Source: Candidatus Magasanikiibacteriota bacterium (GTDB taxonomy: Bacteria > Patescibacteriota > Patescibacteriia > Magasanikbacterales > UBA922). Taken from it: 40,751 bases of DNA. The notes under the pieces were generated by a model. That model saw only the letters and a program-made list of their open reading frames with translations, was not told the origin of the DNA and did not search any database. A program made the position numbers and the translations under genes. The stretch lies in the NCBI GenBank assembly GCA_018651085.1, contig JABIEQ010000008.1, positions 1 through 40,751 of the forward strand. Reading direction: 5' to 3'. Positions 5,525 to 39,637 of the stretch are shown here, in pieces (the stretch's first letter is position 1; each line of letters opens with the position of its first letter).

Positions 5525-5555
5525 CAAAAGTAGTCTAACATATAGACTACTTTTG
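5525..5555. terminator. Intrinsic terminator after the 3135 gene
   Basis: CAAAAGTAGTCTA and TAGACTACTTTTG form a 13-bp stem with a 5-base loop ending in T's; the flanking A/T runs let it act on both strands. Confidence 0.9.
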
Positions 5556-5557
5556 TA

Positions 5558-5591
5558 ATGCCCCGACCGTCCTCCTGCGGGTCTGGGGCAT
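5558..5591 (-). other. GC-rich hairpin after islet gene 2
   Basis: ATGCCCC/GGGGCAT plus GACC/GGTC form an 11-bp stem with one bulged base. The loop (minus strand CGCAGGAGGAC) contains AGGAGG. No U-run follows, so it is not a classic terminator alone. Confidence 0.6.
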
Positions 5592-5596
5592 CTCCT

Positions 5597-5893
5597 TTAG
5601 CGAAGTGTTGGGTATTTTGAAGATCGTTCCTCATGGCGCTTATGCGCTTGAAGTACGATGAACCCTGAAGCAATCGCTGCGACGAAGGCAACGCCCAGAG
5701 ACTCTTCAAAACCGTTCTTATAGTACAGCTCAACTCCAAGAACGAAGATCCAGACCACCCAAGCCGGCACCAATGTGCACAGCAGTATGGCTCTTTTTCT
5801 TGAGTCAAGAAGTTGCGCCACCAGAGGGATGCACTTCGGGAAGACTCCCGTAAGCATAATCATCCAAACAATGAACCAAACAAGAGCTTTCAC
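5597..5893 (-). CDS. GC-rich islet gene 2: small membrane ORFan, 98 residues
   Basis: Not recognised. The sequence begins MKALVWFIVWMIMLTGVFP and shows three to four hydrophobic segments, with a charged C-terminal tail (QAHKRHEERSSKYP). The start is GTG (5893-5891), chosen because AGGAGGG lies 4-5 bases upstream. Base composition and codon use are GC-rich compared with flanking genes. It is convergent with the 3135 gene and divergent from the Nudix gene, filling the gap between them. Expected location: cytoplasmic membrane. Confidence 0.65.
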   Translation of the reverse strand: MKALVWFIVWMIMLTGVFPKCIPLVAQLLDSRKRAILLCTLVPAWVVWIFVLGVELYYKNGFEESLGVAFVAAIASGFIVLQAHKRHEERSSKYPTLR

Positions 5894-5921
5894 ACTCCCT
5901 CCTTTCTTGTTTTACTCTCTG

Positions 5922-11700: not shown

Positions 11701-11962
11701 TTGACAATATCACCTTTATTTGATACGGTTGGTTTGAGCTCGCTTATCAGGCCCGCTCAAATCGGTGGAAGAACCGCCAAGATATTGCGACCTTCGGGTC
11801 ACGACGCCTTGGTCAACGACCACCACCCCTGTCCCGGGACGCCTGTTTCTATACCGGTCTCCGTTGTACCCCTCTTCGCCCGCTTGTGTAGGTGGCAGCG
11901 TGTTCCGGGACAGGGAACACCATTACTTTTATAAAGAGCACTCAATGTGAGTGCTCTTTTTG
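11701..11962 (+). ncRNA. GC-rich structured non-coding islet (candidate RNA)
   Basis: This 260-base stretch has no ATG on the plus strand and no credible frame on the minus strand. TTGACA (11701-11706) lies at its left edge, though the -10 (TACGGT, 17 bases on) is weak. Inside are TTTGAGC/GCTCAAA, CGGT/ACCG, GACC-TTCG-GGTC and TGGTC/GACCA hairpins, then a perfect 11-bp pairing of 11827-11837 with 11905-11915. A strong terminator closes it (AAAGAGCACTC 11933-11943 with GAGTGCTCTTT 11949-11959). It looks like a discrete RNA gene of unknown class; it is not 6S, RNase P or tmRNA that I can recognise. Confidence 0.45.
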
Positions 11963-11963
11963 T

Positions 11964-11990
11964 TTGACAAATTCCTAGATGAGCTATACT
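11964..11990 (+). promoter_or_regulatory. Promoter of islet gene 4
   Basis: TTGACA (11964-11969) and TATACT (11985-11990), 15-base spacer. The -35 box begins within the T-tail of the preceding terminator. Confidence 0.7.
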
Positions 11991-12045
11991 GTTTATGATA
12001 ATGAGAGCCCGATTGAGAGGCTTTCTACAGACAAAGGGGTCCATA

Positions 12046-12444
12046 ATGAGCAGAGAACAAGTCGCGAATGCTTGCTTGATGGCTGTAGCTCAGCTTCAGG
12101 GGCTGATTGAAGAGCAAGACAGGCTGGTGCGTGAGTTCATCGATCCAGACTCGTTCATGAACGATGGAAGCCTCAAGTTTCGCTTCCCTGGAGCAAACCC
12201 TGGCAACCAGGATAACATCGCCTACTTCAAGAAGCAGGCGACGGAAACAATGGAGGCTCTGACTACGTGGCTATGGATGCATGCAGACATCGAAACACAA
12301 CAAGCGATGCGAGCAAAATACGAAGGCAATGAAGAAGAGAGGGCCACCCACCAACAACAGGCAGACACCTTTAACAGTCGAGCAACCGTCGCATTTCGGC
12401 GAGCAAAGGAGGGCAACTTTGGTGCCTACCCCCCGACGATGTGA
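12046..12444 (+). CDS. GC-rich islet gene 4: soluble helical ORFan, 132 residues
   Basis: Not recognised. A soluble, Gln/Glu/Ala-rich, probably helical protein beginning MSREQVANACLMAVAQLQG, with a C-terminal half (ADIETQQAMRAKYEGNEEE) suited to a helical hairpin. The frame is open back to 11995, but that ATG is at the start of the transcript while ATG 12046 has AAAGGGG 7-8 bases upstream, so the shorter form is preferred. It ends in TGA, a stop not used by the AT-rich genes here. A large nested hairpin follows. Confidence 0.65.
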   Translation: MSREQVANACLMAVAQLQGLIEEQDRLVREFIDPDSFMNDGSLKFRFPGANPGNQDNIAYFKKQATETMEALTTWLWMHADIETQQAMRAKYEGNEEERATHQQQADTFNSRATVAFRRAKEGNFGAYPPTM

Positions 12445-12473
12445 TTCCCACCACAATCCCCACTATCTCTCCA

Positions 12474-12556
12474 ACCAAAACCACCCCGTTTCCCCTTCCT
12501 CTGTTTCTTAACTTTATAGGAAACAATGGAAGGAGTACCTTGAGGTGGTTTTTGTA
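12474..12556 (+). terminator. Large nested terminator hairpin after islet gene 4
   Basis: Outer arms AAAACCACC (12478-12486) and GGTGGTTTT (about 12544-12552) precede a short T-rich run. Inside, CCTTCC/GGAAGG and GTTTC/GAAAC pair in nested fashion. It ends the islet before the tal promoter. Confidence 0.6.
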
Positions 12557-14867: not shown

Positions 14868-14972
14868 ATAAAGATATATTATATATACCCTTATTGTTGG
14901 GAGCGCTGGGTGTGACGATACTTTGCGCTCCGTATGATTGTTTTGGTGTTAGTCTTTGTCACACCACACCTC

Positions 14973-15404
14973 CTATGAGGAGCTTCTTTGTCCTTTTGAC
15001 CATACAAGTAGTACGGCGTACACGACCCCTTCTAGCATGGCAATGACGAAAACCCCGAGGTAGAACCTCACTTGATACATCGTAGGTTTTTGTCCTGCTC
15101 GCCCCATTGCGGCCACTTCTTCTTGTATGCGCCATCCCTGAGTCGGGTAGCTTATGAGCCAATCGAAGTGGACCCATACCATACAGACGATGAAGAGTAG
15201 AAATGCTATCCCGGCAAACCACTCCTGAATGGTGATCTCCTGGTTGCTTTTCTTTGGCAAAAATGTACTGATAGAGACAAGCAGCATGACTACTGCAATG
15301 TCCCACATGCTCACGACGAAAGGTCCGAAGTCAATTTTCCCTATGAAAAAGGGAATGACGAAACAAAGTGCTCCCACCATTGCGGTAACGATACCTAGAC
15401 GCAT
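14973..15404 (-). CDS. GC-rich islet gene 5: membrane ORFan, 143 residues
   Basis: Not recognised. Four or five membrane segments (MRLGIVTAMVGALCFVIPFF; VSMWDIAVVMLLVSIST; WFAGIAFLLFIVCMVW; FYLGVFVIAMLEGVVYAVLL) with short polar loops. ATG 15404 is preceded by TGGAGGAAAA, a clear SD. Codon use is GC-rich against the tkt and pgi neighbours. The stop codon lies in a small CTCCT/AGGAG hairpin. A further GGAGCGC/GCGCTCC pairing lies downstream at 14899-14933. Convergent with pgi, divergent from tkt. Confidence 0.65.
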   Translation of the reverse strand: MRLGIVTAMVGALCFVIPFFIGKIDFGPFVVSMWDIAVVMLLVSISTFLPKKSNQEITIQEWFAGIAFLLFIVCMVWVHFDWLISYPTQGWRIQEEVAAMGRAGQKPTMYQVRFYLGVFVIAMLEGVVYAVLLVWSKGQRSSS

Positions 15405-17456: not shown

Positions 17457-18869
17457 ATGGAACTTACTGATTTTGGTCTTATTGGTCTTGGTGTTATGGG
17501 GTCAGCTCTGTCACGTAATGTTGAGAGTCGTGGTTACAAGGTTTCTGTCTATAATCGTAATTACAAAAAAACAGAGGCATTTTTAAAAGAATATGCTCAT
17601 GAACAATTTGTAGGGGCAAAGGACTACAAGACCTTTGTTCGCTCCATTGCTCGTCCTCGAAAAATTATGATTATGGTAAAAGCAGGTGCACCTGTTGATG
17701 CTGTTATTACCGATCTTGTTCCTCACCTTCAAAAAGGAGATATTATTATTGATGGAGGAAACTCTCACTATACTGATACTGATCGACGAGTAGCAGCATT
17801 GAAAGAAAAAGGCCTACTCTTTCTTGGTTGTGGCGTATCGGGAGGCGAAGAAGGAGCTCTTCGAGGGCCAAGCCTTATGCCAGGTGGAAGTAAACTTGCC
17901 TATAAATCAATGAAAAAAATCTTCACTGCTATCGCTGCGGCTGATTTTTCTACTGGTAAATGTGTGAGTTACATTGGTGACGGTGGTGCAGGACATTATG
18001 TCAAAATGGTCCATAATGGTATTGAGTATGGTGTCATGCAACTTTTGGCTGAAGCATATGATATGTACACGCATATTTATAAATTAAAGGCCCCACACAT
18101 AGGAGAAATCTTTTCTCAATTTCAAAAAGGAAAACTTCGATCGTTTCTTCTTCAGATTAGTATTGATGTTTTATTAAAAAAAGATGAATTTACTAAAAAA
18201 CCACTTATTGATAATATTTTAGATAAAGCAGCACAAAAAGGAACTGGAAAATGGACAAGTACTGACACCCTTTCTCGAGGACTTCCTCTCCCTACAATTA
18301 CTGAAGCCGTATTTGCGCGCTACGCTTCTGGGGAAAAAGATCGTCGTGTTGTTCTTTCTACACTCTACAAAAAACAACAAAATGCTCCGCTTATGCCTCT
18401 TGAAGAGTTTACAGATTTTATGGCTGACGCCCTTTATGCCGCAATTGTGAGTACATATATTCAAGGGTATGATTTAATTGCAAGAACAAGTAAAGAAGAA
18501 AAATGGAATGTGAATCTTTCTGAAGTTAGTCGTATTTGGCAAGGAGGATGCATTATCCGCGCTAAACTTCTCCAAGTATTTTTTGATATGTATAAAGGTT
18601 CTTCTAAAAAACTGGTTCATCCCTTTGCTGCACCGAGCATTCAACGGATTATGAAAAAAAACACCCTAGCACTCCGACAGATTGCTGCGTTTGCTAGTGA
18701 AGCAGGTATTCCGGCAGCTGCATTTAGTACATCTCTTTCTTATTTTGATGCAATGACACGAAAAAGACTCCCTGCAAACTTTATTCAAGGACTTCGTGAT
18801 TATTTTGGAGCACATACATACGAGAGAATTGATAAAAAAGGATCATTTCATAGTGATTGGACAACATAA
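17457..18869 (+). CDS. gnd: 6-phosphogluconate dehydrogenase (decarboxylating)
   Basis: 470 residues, the long dimeric form. Oxidises 6-phosphogluconate to ribulose-5-P with NADP. Seen: GLGVMGSALSRNVESRGY (dinucleotide fold), VYNRN, DGGNSHYTDTDRR, GCGVSGGEEGALRGPSLMPGG (substrate binding) and HYVKMVHNGIEYG with the catalytic Lys-x2-His-Asn-Gly. Second gene of tkt-gnd. No U-rich terminator of its own; the GC hairpin at 18897 followed by TTTGT may serve. Confidence 0.94.
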   Translation: MELTDFGLIGLGVMGSALSRNVESRGYKVSVYNRNYKKTEAFLKEYAHEQFVGAKDYKTFVRSIARPRKIMIMVKAGAPVDAVITDLVPHLQKGDIIIDGGNSHYTDTDRRVAALKEKGLLFLGCGVSGGEEGALRGPSLMPGGSKLAYKSMKKIFTAIAAADFSTGKCVSYIGDGGAGHYVKMVHNGIEYGVMQLLAEAYDMYTHIYKLKAPHIGEIFSQFQKGKLRSFLLQISIDVLLKKDEFTKKPLIDNILDKAAQKGTGKWTSTDTLSRGLPLPTITEAVFARYASGEKDRRVVLSTLYKKQQNAPLMPLEEFTDFMADALYAAIVSTYIQGYDLIARTSKEEKWNVNLSEVSRIWQGGCIIRAKLLQVFFDMYKGSSKKLVHPFAAPSIQRIMKKNTLALRQIAAFASEAGIPAAAFSTSLSYFDAMTRKRLPANFIQGLRDYFGAHTYERIDKKGSFHSDWTT

Positions 18870-18925
18870 AAATCTCCCTGGTGGAAGATTTGGTTGCCGG
18901 CGCGCCCTCCTGAGGTACGCGCCGG
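18869..18925. terminator. Paired hairpins between gnd and islet gene 6
   Basis: AAATCT (18869-18874) and AGATTT (18886-18891) form a stem followed on the minus strand by T's, ending the islet gene. CCGGCGCG (18897-18904) and CGCGCCGG (18918-18925) form a second GC-only 8-bp stem whose inner part is CCTC/GAGG. Confidence 0.7.
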
Positions 18926-18968
18926 TTTGTGTTGGTGAATGGCTGTGAACGGCTCCCTTCGCCTACGA

Positions 18969-19256
18969 CTAGGCCTTCTTGAAGGTGCAGTCTACCATCT
19001 CTTCTCCCATCCTTCGGAAGGTCATGTGGATATACCCCTCAAGAACAAAACAGGAATAGATGTCCTCCAGGTCTACCTTGAAATCCTTACGGCCACTGAC
19101 AGCACAGTCATCGAAGATGCTCCACCTGAAGTGTTTTTCCCCGGCACACTGGAGTGTGATGGACCCCTCGATGGGCGAACCTCCGTCTTCACTAGGGTAG
19201 GAACAAGTCCAGCCCCGGTTGATCATCGCCAAAGCGCCTCGAAATACCTCTTTCAT
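18969..19256 (-). CDS. GC-rich islet gene 6: small soluble ORFan, 95 residues
   Basis: Not recognised. Begins MKEVFRGALAMINRGWTCSY and alternates beta-like segments with four cysteines (WTCSY, LQCAG, DDCAV, YSCFV, plus VDCTF near the end), suggesting a compact domain. ATG 19256 has GAGGAG 3-4 bases upstream. Composition is GC-rich compared with gnd and zwf. It fills the gap between them, on the opposite strand, with its own promoter and terminating hairpins. Confidence 0.6.
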   Translation of the reverse strand: MKEVFRGALAMINRGWTCSYPSEDGGSPIEGSITLQCAGEKHFRWSIFDDCAVSGRKDFKVDLEDIYSCFVLEGYIHMTFRRMGEEMVDCTFKKA

Positions 19257-19316
19257 GACTCCTCTGTAGTTTCCGTTTATGTATAGCCACCTGTTCTTCG
19301 CCTGAAGAGCCTATTC

Positions 19317-22477: not shown

Positions 22478-22527
22478 GTTTTTATCTACCCCTCACGCTG
22501 AGGGACACAGACACCAGGGAGAAGTCC

Positions 22528-23130
22528 ATGTTTTGGTATATTGTCATGTTTATCGTCGGTGTTCTGGTGGCAGTCCTCTGCCCCCATGAGACCATCGAAG
22601 AGTACAGCCTCCTCATGTCGGGGCTGGTGGCCACGGCTCTTATCGCCTCGATGCTTGTGCCCTTTGCGGGCTTCACCAAGAAGGAGAAGGCGCTCAAGTG
22701 GTGCGTGCAGAACGGGGTCATCCCGATCTTCGGCGTTCTTGCTGTCTACCTCTTTCCCGAGAGCATCACAGCGGAAGAGATTGCGAAGGCAGCTCTCGGC
22801 TACATGATCCTCATCGCGTCGATCTCCGTGCACATGGGGTACTGGATGAGCTCGATCCATTCGAGGGCCTACCGGCTCAAGCAGTTCCTGCTGATGATGG
22901 AAGGTACAGAGATCCCGAAGACACGAAGGACCATAGCCAGGTGGAACATCGCGGGCCAACAAGACCTGACCGATGGTTTGGTGACGGCTGTCATCGAAGG
23001 CCGAGTGGCGGACCTTCAATCTCTTCTCACTCAGGACCGTACGGATCTTGCGGAGGGTGTGATCAAGGAGATGAATCCCTACCGCTGCCGAGAGGAACAA
23101 TCGAACAGCTACCCGATCGAAAAGCTCTGA
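22528..23130 (+). CDS. GC-rich islet gene 8: membrane ORFan, 200 residues
   Basis: Not recognised. Four membrane segments (MFWYIVMFIVGVLVAVLC; LLMSGLVATALIASMLVPF; NGVIPIFGVLAVYLF; ALGYMILIASISVHMGYW) are followed by a ~90-residue charged cytoplasmic tail (TRRTIARWNIAGQQDLTDG onward). ATG 22528 is preceded by GGGAGAAG, an SD. It ends in TGA. Strongly GC-rich: several alternative frames also stay open, a composition effect. The 11-bp GC hairpin at 23151 follows its stop. Confidence 0.7.
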   Translation: MFWYIVMFIVGVLVAVLCPHETIEEYSLLMSGLVATALIASMLVPFAGFTKKEKALKWCVQNGVIPIFGVLAVYLFPESITAEEIAKAALGYMILIASISVHMGYWMSSIHSRAYRLKQFLLMMEGTEIPKTRRTIARWNIAGQQDLTDGLVTAVIEGRVADLQSLLTQDRTDLAEGVIKEMNPYRCREEQSNSYPIEKL

Positions 23131-23150
23131 CGGCTACGAACATGGACTGC

Positions 23151-23176
23151 CTACGCCGACCTCCTGGTCGGCGTAG
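23151..23176 (+). other. Perfect GC hairpin after islet gene 8
   Basis: CTACGCCGACC and GGTCGGCGTAG form 11 bp around TCCT, with no U-run directly after it. Confidence 0.7.
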
Positions 23177-23189
23177 ATCATGTCCAAAC

Positions 23190-23220
23190 AAAAAAACCCC
23201 TGCTGGGGAATTTTTTTTGC
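23190..23220. terminator. Bidirectional terminator between islet gene 8 and efp
   Basis: CCCC-TGCT-GGGG with T8 on the plus strand side and an A7 run on the other, so both convergent genes can end here. Confidence 0.8.
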
Positions 23221-27341: not shown

Positions 27342-27370
27342 AAATACGACTCCGGTATTACCGAAGTCGT
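27342..27370 (-). terminator. Terminator downstream of the hammerhead
   Basis: On the minus strand ACGACT-x-CGGTA and TACCG-x-AGTCGT pair, followed by A then seven T's. It would end the islet gene 9 transcript after the ribozyme. Confidence 0.75.
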
Positions 27371-27386
27371 TGTGTTTGTTATGCGT

Positions 27387-27450
27387 GACGTTTCGTCCTA
27401 TCAGAATCAATCGTAAGGACTCATCAGTCCCGATTTAATCGGGAGACGTC
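27387..27450 (-). ncRNA. Hammerhead ribozyme (type III) in the 3' UTR of islet gene 9
   Basis: Minus-strand reading: stem III GACGU (27450-27446) with ACGUC (27391-27387); cleavage triplet GUC ending at C27445; stem I UCCCGAU (27444-27438) with AUCGGGA (27434-27428), triloop UAA; core CUGAUGA (27427-27421); stem II GUCCU (27420-27416) with AGGAC (27399-27395), 16-base loop; GAA (27394-27392). All invariant core bases are present and all 17 stem pairs are canonical. Cleavage is predicted between C27445 and U27444. It lies between a hairpin array and a terminator. Confidence 0.93.
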
Positions 27451-27590
27451 GGCGGAACACTGGGGAAGTGTTCCGCGAACTCCTTGTCCTGCTTGGGAAG
27501 CAGGGTTCTCTGCCTTCTCGAGCGTTGCGCTCGAACGGGATGCAGAGAAGACCGGTCAGAAGTAGCGCCCCCACCTTATCAGGAGGTGGG
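27451..27590 (-). other. Hairpin array between islet gene 9 stop and the hammerhead
   Basis: Four to five strong GC stems in ~140 bases: CCCACCT/AGGTGGG overlapping the stop; TTCTCTGC/GCAGAGAA enclosing TCGAGCG-TTG-CGCTCGA; CCTGCTT-GGG-AAGCAGG (27488-27504); and the perfect 10-bp GCGGAACACT/AGTGTTCCGC (27452-27476). Too dense for chance in a 3' UTR; likely a structured RNA domain. Confidence 0.7.
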
Positions 27591-28778
27591 ATCTTCCAGC
27601 ACCAACGGCGCATCAGTGGGCTTCAGGTTCCGTCGGTACCAATCCGCAATGGCGTAGACTACGGGGCAACTGTCCGGCAGCCCCCAAACATTCATACCCG
27701 AGCTGGATGCACGTTGCCGCTCACGCTCACGGACAAGAGCCAACCGCAAGGTGGCAACATCCGCATAGTACGTGGGGAAGGAATGCATGCTCCAGTTGTG
27801 ACTGGTATCCTCACCATACTGAACCTGAACCCTCAGTAGTGAATCTATCGGCCCCGTCGCAGCCAAATAGCCATTAGGGGCTTCACCACCAGGCAGGAAA
27901 ACCTCGTGAGCAAGCTCGGGGATGTTCTCCAGGGACACTCGATGAAGCTCTGCGTGATGCTCATCGAGCCATTCGATGGCACAAGTCGGAGTGCAGAAAA
28001 TCCGCTCCCGCTTACCATGTCCGTCAAGAGTCCTGTGCAAGTGGTCCGTCGGGATATCGTCGTCTTCGAAGTACCAGTGGGCATCGAAGGCCAAAGGTTG
28101 CCCGGATGGCGCGTTCCCAAGCTCGTACCACTCCATCGCACGATGCAGCAAGCCACATTGCTCGCAACGCTCGTGACCATTGGGCTTAACCCAGTACCCC
28201 TTCGCATCGAAGTTGATGGGGTACCACGGAAACCCTGGGGGGGTCTGCCGTACGAGGTGCACCAGAAAGCAGTTATTACTGCAGGCGATGCCACCGAACG
28301 GAAGGTCGACATCAGAGATATCGCACTCAACGCAGGCTTCCGGTCCCTCGGGGGTATAACCCCAAAACACCGGGTCACGCTGATCAACATTGGAGGCCTT
28401 GATGCAGGCGACCGAGCAGAAGTGCATGACCGGCTTACGGTCCTCTCCCAAGATTGGAAGAAACTCTCGGTCGACCAGCGGATTCATCGTGACACCACAG
28501 TGGACACAGGTGTTGCACCCAATGGACTCTCCATTGGTGGCGAAGAGCATGCCCCAAGGAGCCGTACCCGGCACCTTGGTCATGTAATGCTCAAGGGGCC
28601 ACCGAGCCAATTCATCGCGGAGCCCGGTGTTATCCCGGATCCACAAGAGCTCGGCTACCGTGAAGGTGGTCAGTAAGTCAACCAGATTAGCCCAACTGAG
28701 GGGCCACGCCCCCGTCGCGGGGTCACAATTCTTCCAGTACTCGATAAGGGCGACGATGGGGGCGGTGTTGATGATCAT
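27579..28778 (-). CDS. GC-rich islet gene 9: Cys-pair (zinc-finger-like) ORFan, 399 residues
   Basis: Not recognised as a family. Repeated Cys clusters suggest structural zinc sites: CNTCVHCG ... FCSVACIKA (~110-155), ACVECDISD ... CSNNCF (~172-192), RCEQCG (~220) and IFCTPTCAIEWL (~270). The [FI]C-x3-C halves resemble TRASH/MYM-type fingers. The rest is aromatic-rich and soluble. ATG 28778 has AAGGAGAG 7 bases upstream; it ends in TGA within a hairpin. It is the largest of the GC-rich islet genes, with a 130-base structured leader and a ribozyme-bearing 3' UTR. Possible roles in nucleic-acid binding are inference. Confidence 0.7.
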   Translation of the reverse strand: MIINTAPIVALIEYWKNCDPATGAWPLSWANLVDLLTTFTVAELLWIRDNTGLRDELARWPLEHYMTKVPGTAPWGMLFATNGESIGCNTCVHCGVTMNPLVDREFLPILGEDRKPVMHFCSVACIKASNVDQRDPVFWGYTPEGPEACVECDISDVDLPFGGIACSNNCFLVHLVRQTPPGFPWYPINFDAKGYWVKPNGHERCEQCGLLHRAMEWYELGNAPSGQPLAFDAHWYFEDDDIPTDHLHRTLDGHGKRERIFCTPTCAIEWLDEHHAELHRVSLENIPELAHEVFLPGGEAPNGYLAATGPIDSLLRVQVQYGEDTSHNWSMHSFPTYYADVATLRLALVRERERQRASSSGMNVWGLPDSCPVVYAIADWYRRNLKPTDAPLVLEDPTS

Positions 28779-28945
28779 TATATCTCTCCTTGGCGCCTAA
28801 GATAGGGGCCTGTTGTAGTTTTCATGGATAACAACTGCGGGGAGAGGGTCTCCCGGCATGCAGTTACCCATGAGAATCAATGAAAAGAGGTTTCCCTTTT
28901 AAAGAACGAACGATGAAATATAACATAAAAACATGGTTTTGTCAA
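28779..28945 (-). promoter_or_regulatory. Promoter and structured leader of islet gene 9
   Basis: TTGACA (28945-28940), 17 bases, TATATT (28922-28917). The ~130-base leader holds a long stem: CATGGGTAAC-TGC near 28875 pairs with GCA-GTTATCCATG near 28830, enclosing GGGAGA-CCC-TCTCCC. Riboswitch-like in layout, but I match it to no known class. Confidence 0.6.
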
Positions 28946-29248: not shown

Positions 29249-29553
29249 TGCCGGGGGGCAGAATTGAACTGCCGACACGAGGATTTTCCACTTTGGCTTA
29301 GATTTCTCTAAGGATTGGACTATCTCATCACCCTTTAGATTAAAGGGGCTGGGCGCTATTGTGGAATTATTGTTGGGACTCATCCACTAGTCTCTACACC
29401 TTCCTTGACACTTAAACCCATCAAGGCTCGGCTCGGGATTACCATGGTCAAAAGACTTTAGACTTCCCCGAATTCACCCAGTTTTTCTCATTCCGATTTA
29501 CATCGAAAGGGACCGAAAATCAGTCCACTGCTCTACCACTGAGCTACCCCGGC
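29249..29553 (-). tRNA. tRNA-Phe (GAA) split by a group I intron
   Basis: Exon 1 is 29553-29522 (32 bases, ending ...GTGGACU33) and exon 2 is 29288-29249 (40 bases, starting G34AAAAUCC). Joined they give a 72-base tRNA with acceptor GCCGGGG/CCCCGGC, D-arm GCTC/GAGC, anticodon GAA and T-loop TTCAATT. The anticodon stem GTGGA/TCCTC has a U-U mismatch at the second pair. CCA not encoded. The body closely resembles bacterial tRNA-Phe. Confidence 0.9.
29289..29521 (-). other. Group I intron (IC3-like) inside tRNA-Phe
   Basis: 233 bases, no ORF. P1 forms between exon GGACU and intron GGUCC with the required U-G wobble at the 5' splice site. The intron ends in G (29289). P7 strands AGACUA (29403-29398) and UAGUCC (29322-29317) and the P4-P6 signature AAUCCCGAGCC (29440-29430) are present, matching the tRNA-Leu type (IC3) pattern. 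Self-splicing is expected. Confidence 0.9.
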
Positions 29554-29899
29554 TTTTTCAGTTTCAAGTCTAAACTTCTACTTAACTGAAGCTTATCTTA
29601 AACTGTACATTCCACATCATACCTAATTTATTTATGAATGTCAACATATATAGCATAAAGTGGCCAGCAAAAATTTACATACAAAAAATCATTATCACAT
29701 CATCATACAATGTCCATATGATAACTACAAACTACTTTAAGCAAAATTGTAAACTACGCTAAAAACAACTATACTGCAAAAAGAACGGTTAGCTTCTGAT
29801 CGTGTATAAAATATGGAAATTAAGTGGTATAAAGACTTTAAACCTGTTGATACCTTAAAGACGGACACTAGGCACTAACAATTCTATAATTCCACTTAC
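29554..29899. promoter_or_regulatory. Intergenic region: promoter of the tRNA-Phe/Pro operon and of ispA-like gene
   Basis: Minus strand: TTGACA (29644-29639), 17 bases, TATGAT (29621-29616). Plus strand: TATAAA boxes at about 29805 and 29829 could start the prenyl synthase transcript. A 21-codon frame (29813-29878) lies between but its ATG is too close to the -10 to be convincing. Otherwise nothing seen. Confidence 0.7.
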
Positions 29900-38715: not shown

Positions 38716-38766
38716 ATGGATCAAAGAAAACAATTCCACAACCTTCTACACAAAGCTATCTTGTCA
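38716..38766 (+). pseudogene. Possible 5' fragment of a gene cut by the IS1595-type element
   Basis: Starts MDQRKQFHNLLHKAILS after TATACT (38702-38707) with the SD-free short leader typical of this genome, then runs into the transposon end at about 38767. No matching remainder was found beyond the other end. Weak evidence. Confidence 0.25.
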
Positions 38767-39637
38767 GGCGTTGAAGAATCAGATGAAAGATCGGAACATC
38801 CGAGTTCCGAGCATTGTAAAAGAAAACCCTCTCGTCTACGTAGGCTTGTAGATACTTTTTCGAGACAACGCGATGCGTAGAACGTATCGCGTTTTTTAGA
38901 AAGCTCCAGAAGCCTTCTAATCTATTCGTTGTTACAGATCCTCGAACATATTCTCTGTTGCTGTGGTTCACGGTATGATGAACGTATCGTTGGTCTAGAT
39001 TATTATAGACACCAGCCTCATCTGTACAGACTTCTGATCCTCTAGCGATTATCTTCCAGATATACGCACCTAATGTATATCTCTGTGTATTAGGAACAAC
39101 CACTGCAAACACATCTCCCTCCCTTTTCAAGATACCAAATACTGGTATTTTTTTCTTTGGATTCTTTTTGTTTCTACTTATATATCGTCGCTGCTTCCCT
39201 CCAACATAGGTCTCATCTAGTTCAAACACCCCTTCAGATTTTTCCATGTTCTGTTTCATAAGATCTCGTATCTTATGCCCTATTCTCCATGCTGTCTTAT
39301 AGGTTACCCCTAACTGACGCTGTAACTCGGCTGCCGGCACTCCATGCCTAGATTGACTGAAAAGATACATCGCAAAAAACCACAGCCTTAGGGATGTGGT
39401 AGAATTCTTGAAAATTGTCTTTGAAAGTGGGTTCACCTGATGTCCGCATGAACAGGCATAGGATTTACGTCCTTTTACCCTGTAAAACGTCTTTTTGGCA
39501 CAGAGTGGACACACATAGTCACGATAACGTACATTAAATATATAATCGAGACAGACATCATCATCAGGGAATTCCCTTTCAAAGTCGATTATGCTGTATT
39601 TCATAGCACCCAGATATTGATCAATATCTAGGTTCAT
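38756..39637 (-). CDS. IS1595-family (ISXO2-like) transposase
   Basis: 293 residues, full length. N-terminal zinc ribbon (VCPLCAKKTFYRV ... CSCGHQ), helix-turn-helix region (AAELQRQLGVTYKTAWRIGHKI), then the catalytic core: first Asp in FELDETYVGGKQ, second in VCTDEAGVY, and NRLEGFWSFLKNAIRSTH with the family's Asn and Glu/His region. Complete, so possibly active. Candidate ends: 38767-38786 and inverted 39653-39634 agree at 13 of 20 bases; TCTTGTCA occurs on both sides (38759-38766, 39657-39664). Confidence 0.9.
   Translation of the reverse strand: MNLDIDQYLGAMKYSIIDFEREFPDDDVCLDYIFNVRYRDYVCPLCAKKTFYRVKGRKSYACSCGHQVNPLSKTIFKNSTTSLRLWFFAMYLFSQSRHGVPAAELQRQLGVTYKTAWRIGHKIRDLMKQNMEKSEGVFELDETYVGGKQRRYISRNKKNPKKKIPVFGILKREGDVFAVVVPNTQRYTLGAYIWKIIARGSEVCTDEAGVYNNLDQRYVHHTVNHSNREYVRGSVTTNRLEGFWSFLKNAIRSTHRVVSKKYLQAYVDERVFFYNARNSDVPIFHLILQRLTR

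Follow-up and report, generated by a model that had tools for sequence, protein, structure and literature searches.

On the minus strand of the 40,751-nt stretch of DNA analysed here (the window), a hammerhead ribozyme lies at the end of a GC-rich orphan gene of a tiny symbiont-like bacterium of Patescibacteria. Core parse and covariation confirm the element as a canonical type III hammerhead, for which self-cleavage at C27445 is predicted. Judged by sequence comparison, it is one instance of a 3′ module that recurs in Patescibacteria, passes horizontally and is attached to many unrelated genes.

The ribozyme and its transcription unit

Read on the minus strand from 27450 to 27387, the element parses as GACGU-C^UCCCGAU-UAA-AUCGGGA-CUGAUGA-GUCCU..AGGAC-GAAA-CGUC. 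Stems III, I and II have 5, 7 and 5 bp, stem III is open, and loop II measures ~18 nt, a length that varies between units. The core is CUGAUGA plus GAAA, the triplet is GUC and H17 is C27445; the invariant CUGANGA and GAA, an NUH triplet and three stems around the core, as expected of a type III member, are present. The initial annotation had thus been right about the coordinates, strand, topology, core bases, cleavage triplet and stem lengths. The covariance-model search that it had proposed gives a match of RF00008 (Hammerhead_3) to 27385-27452 with 40.5 bits and E 1.1e-7 (relaxed Rfam cmscan, 301 nt), or E 8.5e-8 genome-wide. The default Rfam scan of the window reported no hammerhead, because Rfam's curated gathering score is 48.5 bits, above the 40.5 bits of the match. 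That value is a reporting threshold and no biochemical criterion; with this model, scores of 53.4 and 49 bits are seen among homologues of that set. In the MFE fold of the stretch alone the hammerhead stems form at an ordinary energy (z −1.2), and the case is therefore built on core and covariation, not on energy.

Covariation was assessed in an alignment of 29 homologous sequences from Patescibacteria. Pairing is found in 97.6% of cells, versus 29–48% with the partners slid, while both sides have changed at 12 of the 16 pairs (121 cells). The core bases are kept, H17 being C in 93 of 106 hammerhead loci, and the catalytic core is intact in all aligned homologues, single units included. Loop II is conserved only as a loose GAUU-type stretch, and its size is associated with that of loop I (Fisher p 4e-7), as would be expected if both loops touch to speed cleavage.

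The hammerhead belongs to one self-contained unit of promoter, 5′ hairpin, ORF, 3′ hairpins, ribozyme and terminator (Table 1). Its predicted place, downstream of the ORF, after the 3′ hairpins and before the terminator, was borne out, every one of these parts having been located.

Table 1. Parts of the hammerhead unit in the window, by descending coordinate
Feature	Position	Strand	Basis
Promoter-like TTGACA-17-TATATT	28917-28945	-	consensus match only, 11/12, TG before second hexamer
boxA-like GTTCTTTAAAA	28897-28907	-	at presumed transcript start; putative function
Strong 5′ UTR hairpin	28822-28873	-	leader 28775-28900: −45.3 kcal/mol, z −4.1
Ribosome site AAGGAGAG + ATG	ATG at 28778	-	sequence
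399-aa ORFan, GC 0.58	27579-28778	-	zinc-finger-like repeats by eye; relatives not found
3′ UTR hairpin 1	27506-27549	-	fold
3′ UTR hairpin 2	27488-27504	-	fold
3′ UTR hairpin 3 (GCGGAACAC/GUGUUCCGC)	27452-27476	-	1 nt before stem III
Type III hammerhead ribozyme	27387-27450	-	Rfam match, core parse, covariation; predicted cleavage between 27445 and 27444
Intrinsic terminator stem, then T run	27346-27370	-	sequence

The gene had been described as a GC-rich singleton, and so it is: its GC content is 0.58, against 0.376 in the surroundings and about 0.38 in the genome, and no real relative of its product was found in Pfam, PHROGs, NCBIfam, PADLOC, PDB, GTDB contigs, viral contigs or 113 relatives. 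By eye, the protein contains three C-x2-C ... C-x3-C repeats resembling FCS/TRASH-type zinc fingers. Residues 90-127 give a weak Pfam match to DUF7576 (E 0.0024), and a single-sequence AlphaFold2 model is too low in confidence for use (pLDDT 34.6). About 20 ORFs with GC ≥ 0.48 occur in 200 kb of the host genome. After many of its GC-rich ORFs comes a strong hairpin and then a terminator apart from it, mostly with no hammerhead between the two. The ribozyme appears to be an optional insert between the hairpin and the terminator of GC-rich genes.

The window has just one hammerhead, and no phage genes are evident near it (neighbouring ORFs by eye, three proteins searched). Further GC-rich islands are seen at 2401-2950, 5551-5900, 11701-12550, 14901-15250, 18851-19300 and 22501-23200, several of which contain small ORFs that have a strong 3′ hairpin and, apart from it, a terminator, but no hammerhead. 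At 2451-2953 lies the GC-rich unit 2538-2942, whose two ends seem complementary (AAGAAGGTGGTGTGAC / GTCACACCATCACCCCTTCTT), as though the mRNA paired its 5′ end with its 3′ end. The boxA-like GTTCTTTA occurs at two sites, 28907 (-), where the hammerhead transcript is presumed to start, and 25109 (+), inside a tRNA cluster. We rejected boxA as a general part of the module: it was found within 40 nt downstream in just 7 of 106 loci (background 1.4%). Other elements of the window are a group I intron (RF00028, 74 bits) at 29296-29569 (-), which appears to split a tRNA gene just upstream of tRNA-Pro, and at 38756-39637 (-) an ORF which by eye is like IS1595/ISXO2-type transposases.

Recurrence and placement in Patescibacteria

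A search of related genomes for the same arrangement, also proposed at the outset, shows that it recurs, with about 100 related loci of shared anatomy. Beyond the window copy the host genome has two more hammerheads, of which that at C11:61545-61614 scores 24.8 bits with RF00008. R1, a covariance model built in this analysis, gives 69.7 bits for the window copy, 67.6 for the C11 copy and 59.5 for the third, at C13:115095-115162; the first two are in its training set and the third is not. RF00008 matches with E ≤ 0.01 were obtained in 21 of 144 relatives versus 1 of 14 control genomes (sub-threshold), and R1 matches in 44/381 genomes of the class and 44/380 of the phylum, that is, in roughly one genome in nine, the two samples sharing a few genomes. 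Most of the hosts are uncultivated MAGs. Across 84,980 GTDB species the exact core pattern occurs at 49 loci, 38 of them with Patescibacteria names, one more assigned there and 8 labelled as other phyla, an enrichment which is somewhat inflated since the pattern was drawn from Patescibacteria. Type I hammerheads were seen in 4 of the 144 relatives, none above the cut-off and two of the four at type III loci.

Placement was analysed in 77 parsed units. As type III models were used to find these loci, there is some selection for topology and core, but none for the hairpin, the GC step or the gene context. Directly 5′ of stem III, 45 nt have a mean folding z of −3.05, whereas a control stretch taken 300 nt upstream gives −0.54 (p 9e-10; relatedness makes the loci non-independent, so p-values are indicative). 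The upstream hairpin has its last paired base 0–3 nt from stem III in 64 of the 77 units. Comparing 500 nt before and after the site, GC content drops by >0.05 in 49 units, with the reverse in 3. In nearly all units an ORF on the same strand ends ≤400 nt upstream of the hammerhead. Within 100 nt downstream, 53 of 106 loci have a terminator-like hairpin (shuffled controls: 22), and close relatives show it most regularly.

The genes that carry the module are unrelated. That of the second unit of the host genome encodes an M32 carboxypeptidase; elsewhere we found cyclopropane synthase-like, adenylosuccinate synthetase-like, MoxR-like AAA and AAA_28 proteins, and many lipoprotein-like or membrane ORFans.

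Variable cargo and integron-like cassettes

Units with common ends and different cargo suggest how the module spreads. The unit of L041 (Magasanikbacteria) is 86.8% identical over 1020 nt to that of L060 (Peregrinibacteria), from the promoter region to a common tail, while L013 has both ends in common with these two and a different ORF. The gyrB locus (gyrB by eye) of the congeneric genomes G066, G083 and G085 can be aligned at about 71–85% in its flanks and in the 3′ modules with the hammerhead, and the ORFs between the conserved modules have no similarity to one another. Fast divergence of one ORF family could also have operated at this locus; the lengths of the ORFs differ widely. On these alignments we conclude that the hairpin-hammerhead-terminator module moves between Patescibacteria and is joined to unrelated GC-rich genes. 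The region beside gyrB in three congeneric genomes (L236, L089, L235) is hypervariable: small genes for membrane proteins or lipoproteins stand there in a row, and their UTRs are conserved. Hammerheads also form arrays of three to five copies in G555, G083 and G085, spaced by 570–1020 nt and in G085 by up to about 1.6 kb. In one row, five hammerhead-ended genes follow each other (L086, G555:C16, 2611-5841), with a nearly identical intergenic leader after two of them.

Some of these units resemble integron gene cassettes. The tails of the L041/L060/L013 subgroup run into attC-like palindromes; G125 has three attC-like copies with R′ GTTAGGC (single-strand fold z −7.4), and attC-like arrays holding hammerhead units are present in G755 and G026 as well. 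Beside the G026 array lies a 311-aa tyrosine recombinase that scores 259 bits with TIGR02249 (cut-off 265) and 256.6 bits with NF040815 (cut-off 220); as it is without the model stretch 183-235, we call it IntI/XerA-like and the arrays integron-like. Hammerhead units differ from integron gene cassettes in carrying a promoter, a ribozyme and a terminator, and in the G026 and G755 arrays the hammerhead gene runs antiparallel to its neighbours. Another integron-like array, with a recombinase near the TIGR02249 cut-off, was noticed in Magasanikbacteria (L248:5209-11900).

In the host genome a simple R″/R′ scan of the window and 160 kb more gave 0 attC sites, the scan being crude and also blind to the sites of G026 and G755. 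No clear integron integrase was found there, the weak two-piece match to TIGR02249 being read as Xer-type. Given these two results, it is anatomy that ties the window unit to the cassette units. We tentatively propose, as a possibility that we rate somewhat below even, that Patescibacteria share a mobile expression cassette made of promoter, leader hairpin, interchangeable GC-rich ORF, hairpin, type III hammerhead, terminator and, in some lineages, a terminal integron attC. Its constant 5′ and 3′ modules would let newly acquired foreign genes be expressed at once with a ribozyme-made mRNA end, with the window unit as a settled member.

Proposed role and relation to known hammerheads

What is directly at hand for the module is its sequence, covariation, placement, recurrence and common ends around different ORFs. 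From these we consider it probable that the hammerhead matures the 3′ end of the monocistronic ORFan mRNA by self-cleavage, as the same module would do on unrelated genes, some of them on integron-like cassettes; cleavage in the cell, protection of the 3′ end and a benefit to the gene are what we infer. Transcription would start at the promoter near 28945, cross the ORFan and stop at the terminator at 27370-27346, and the hammerhead would fold during transcription and cut after C27445. The upstream product, without the terminator hairpin and the U tail, would then end in the hairpin 27476-27452 followed by C-GACGUC with a 2′,3′-cyclic phosphate, an end that should withstand 3′ exonucleases dependent on a free 3′ OH. 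The same cut would turn the transcripts of multi-gene arrays into single-gene mRNAs. The fixed hairpin, the kept core, the association of loops I and II and the terminator 3′ of the ribozyme in single units all fit co-transcriptional cleavage. It should be noted, however, that the need for ribozyme cutting is not obvious, since a natural terminator already gives a hairpin end, and that units of the host genome without a hammerhead presumably work without one.

In cassette arrays elsewhere the main role of the hammerhead may be gene separation. Extended to all units, this would mean that the ribozyme separates the genes of polycistronic cassette arrays, and that single units are cassettes that left an array with the ribozyme as a passenger. 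The arrays of three to five hammerheads, the units within attC-like arrays in G026, G755 and G125, and the same role proposed for prophage hammerheads flanking single genes (PMC3088659) point this way. However, in the window unit, which has a promoter to itself, the ribozyme is followed by a terminator and there is nothing downstream to separate, and the catalytic core is kept in single units too; we regard this explanation as unlikely, though worth keeping in mind.

Regulation of the gene by ligand- or protein-controlled cleavage, as in an allosteric ribozyme, could be imagined from the long and variable loop II, but that loop has little conservation, the default Rfam scan gave 0 aptamer families in the window, and nearly the same module sits on unrelated genes, all of which makes such control very improbable. 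Viroid-like RNAs and retrozymes make use of type III hammerheads, and the unit might accordingly be seen as belonging to an element of circular-RNA or retrozyme-like type that replicates through RNA. We rejected this origin as barely conceivable: there is one ribozyme per unit, bounding direct repeats are absent, and the window unit is single-copy in the genome and has a promoter and a terminator. Least of all is the hammerhead a chance match or a decayed, inactive relic, a thought that its Rfam score under the gathering value may raise, given the genome-wide E, the intact core in every aligned homologue and a module that recurs with compensatory changes in 29 sequences, which excludes chance.

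The hammerhead ribozyme class and bacterial hammerheads near genes are already known. The Patescibacteria members share the topology, invariant core, NUH triplet and closed stems I and II of RF00008, but many have a longer loop II, most score under the gathering value, and they are tied to a hairpin 0–3 nt upstream and in many units to a terminator downstream. For the clustered hammerheads of prophages, which flank single genes, a part in cutting up long transcripts has been proposed (Perreault et al. 2011, PMC3088659). Both groups have a ribozyme at the end of individual genes, vary in the gene concerned and form arrays; in contrast, the Patescibacteria copies are type III, chromosomal and often single, with their own promoter and terminator. 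Of 65 classified cases on IMG/VR contigs with the same core, 64 are type I, and the prophage arrangement of several ribozymes between phage genes does not occur in the window. Among openly licensed papers, which are weak evidence on this point, we found no report of hammerheads in Patescibacteria, of a fixed hairpin-hammerhead-terminator order or of hammerheads in integron-like cassettes.

A large and uniform set of hammerheads in one phylum, whose position with respect to gene, hairpin and terminator is fixed, gives this ribozyme a testable role, the making of mRNA 3′ ends. The units link a ribozyme to integron-like cassettes, and they offer a handle on how the reduced Patescibacteria gain and express foreign orphan genes.
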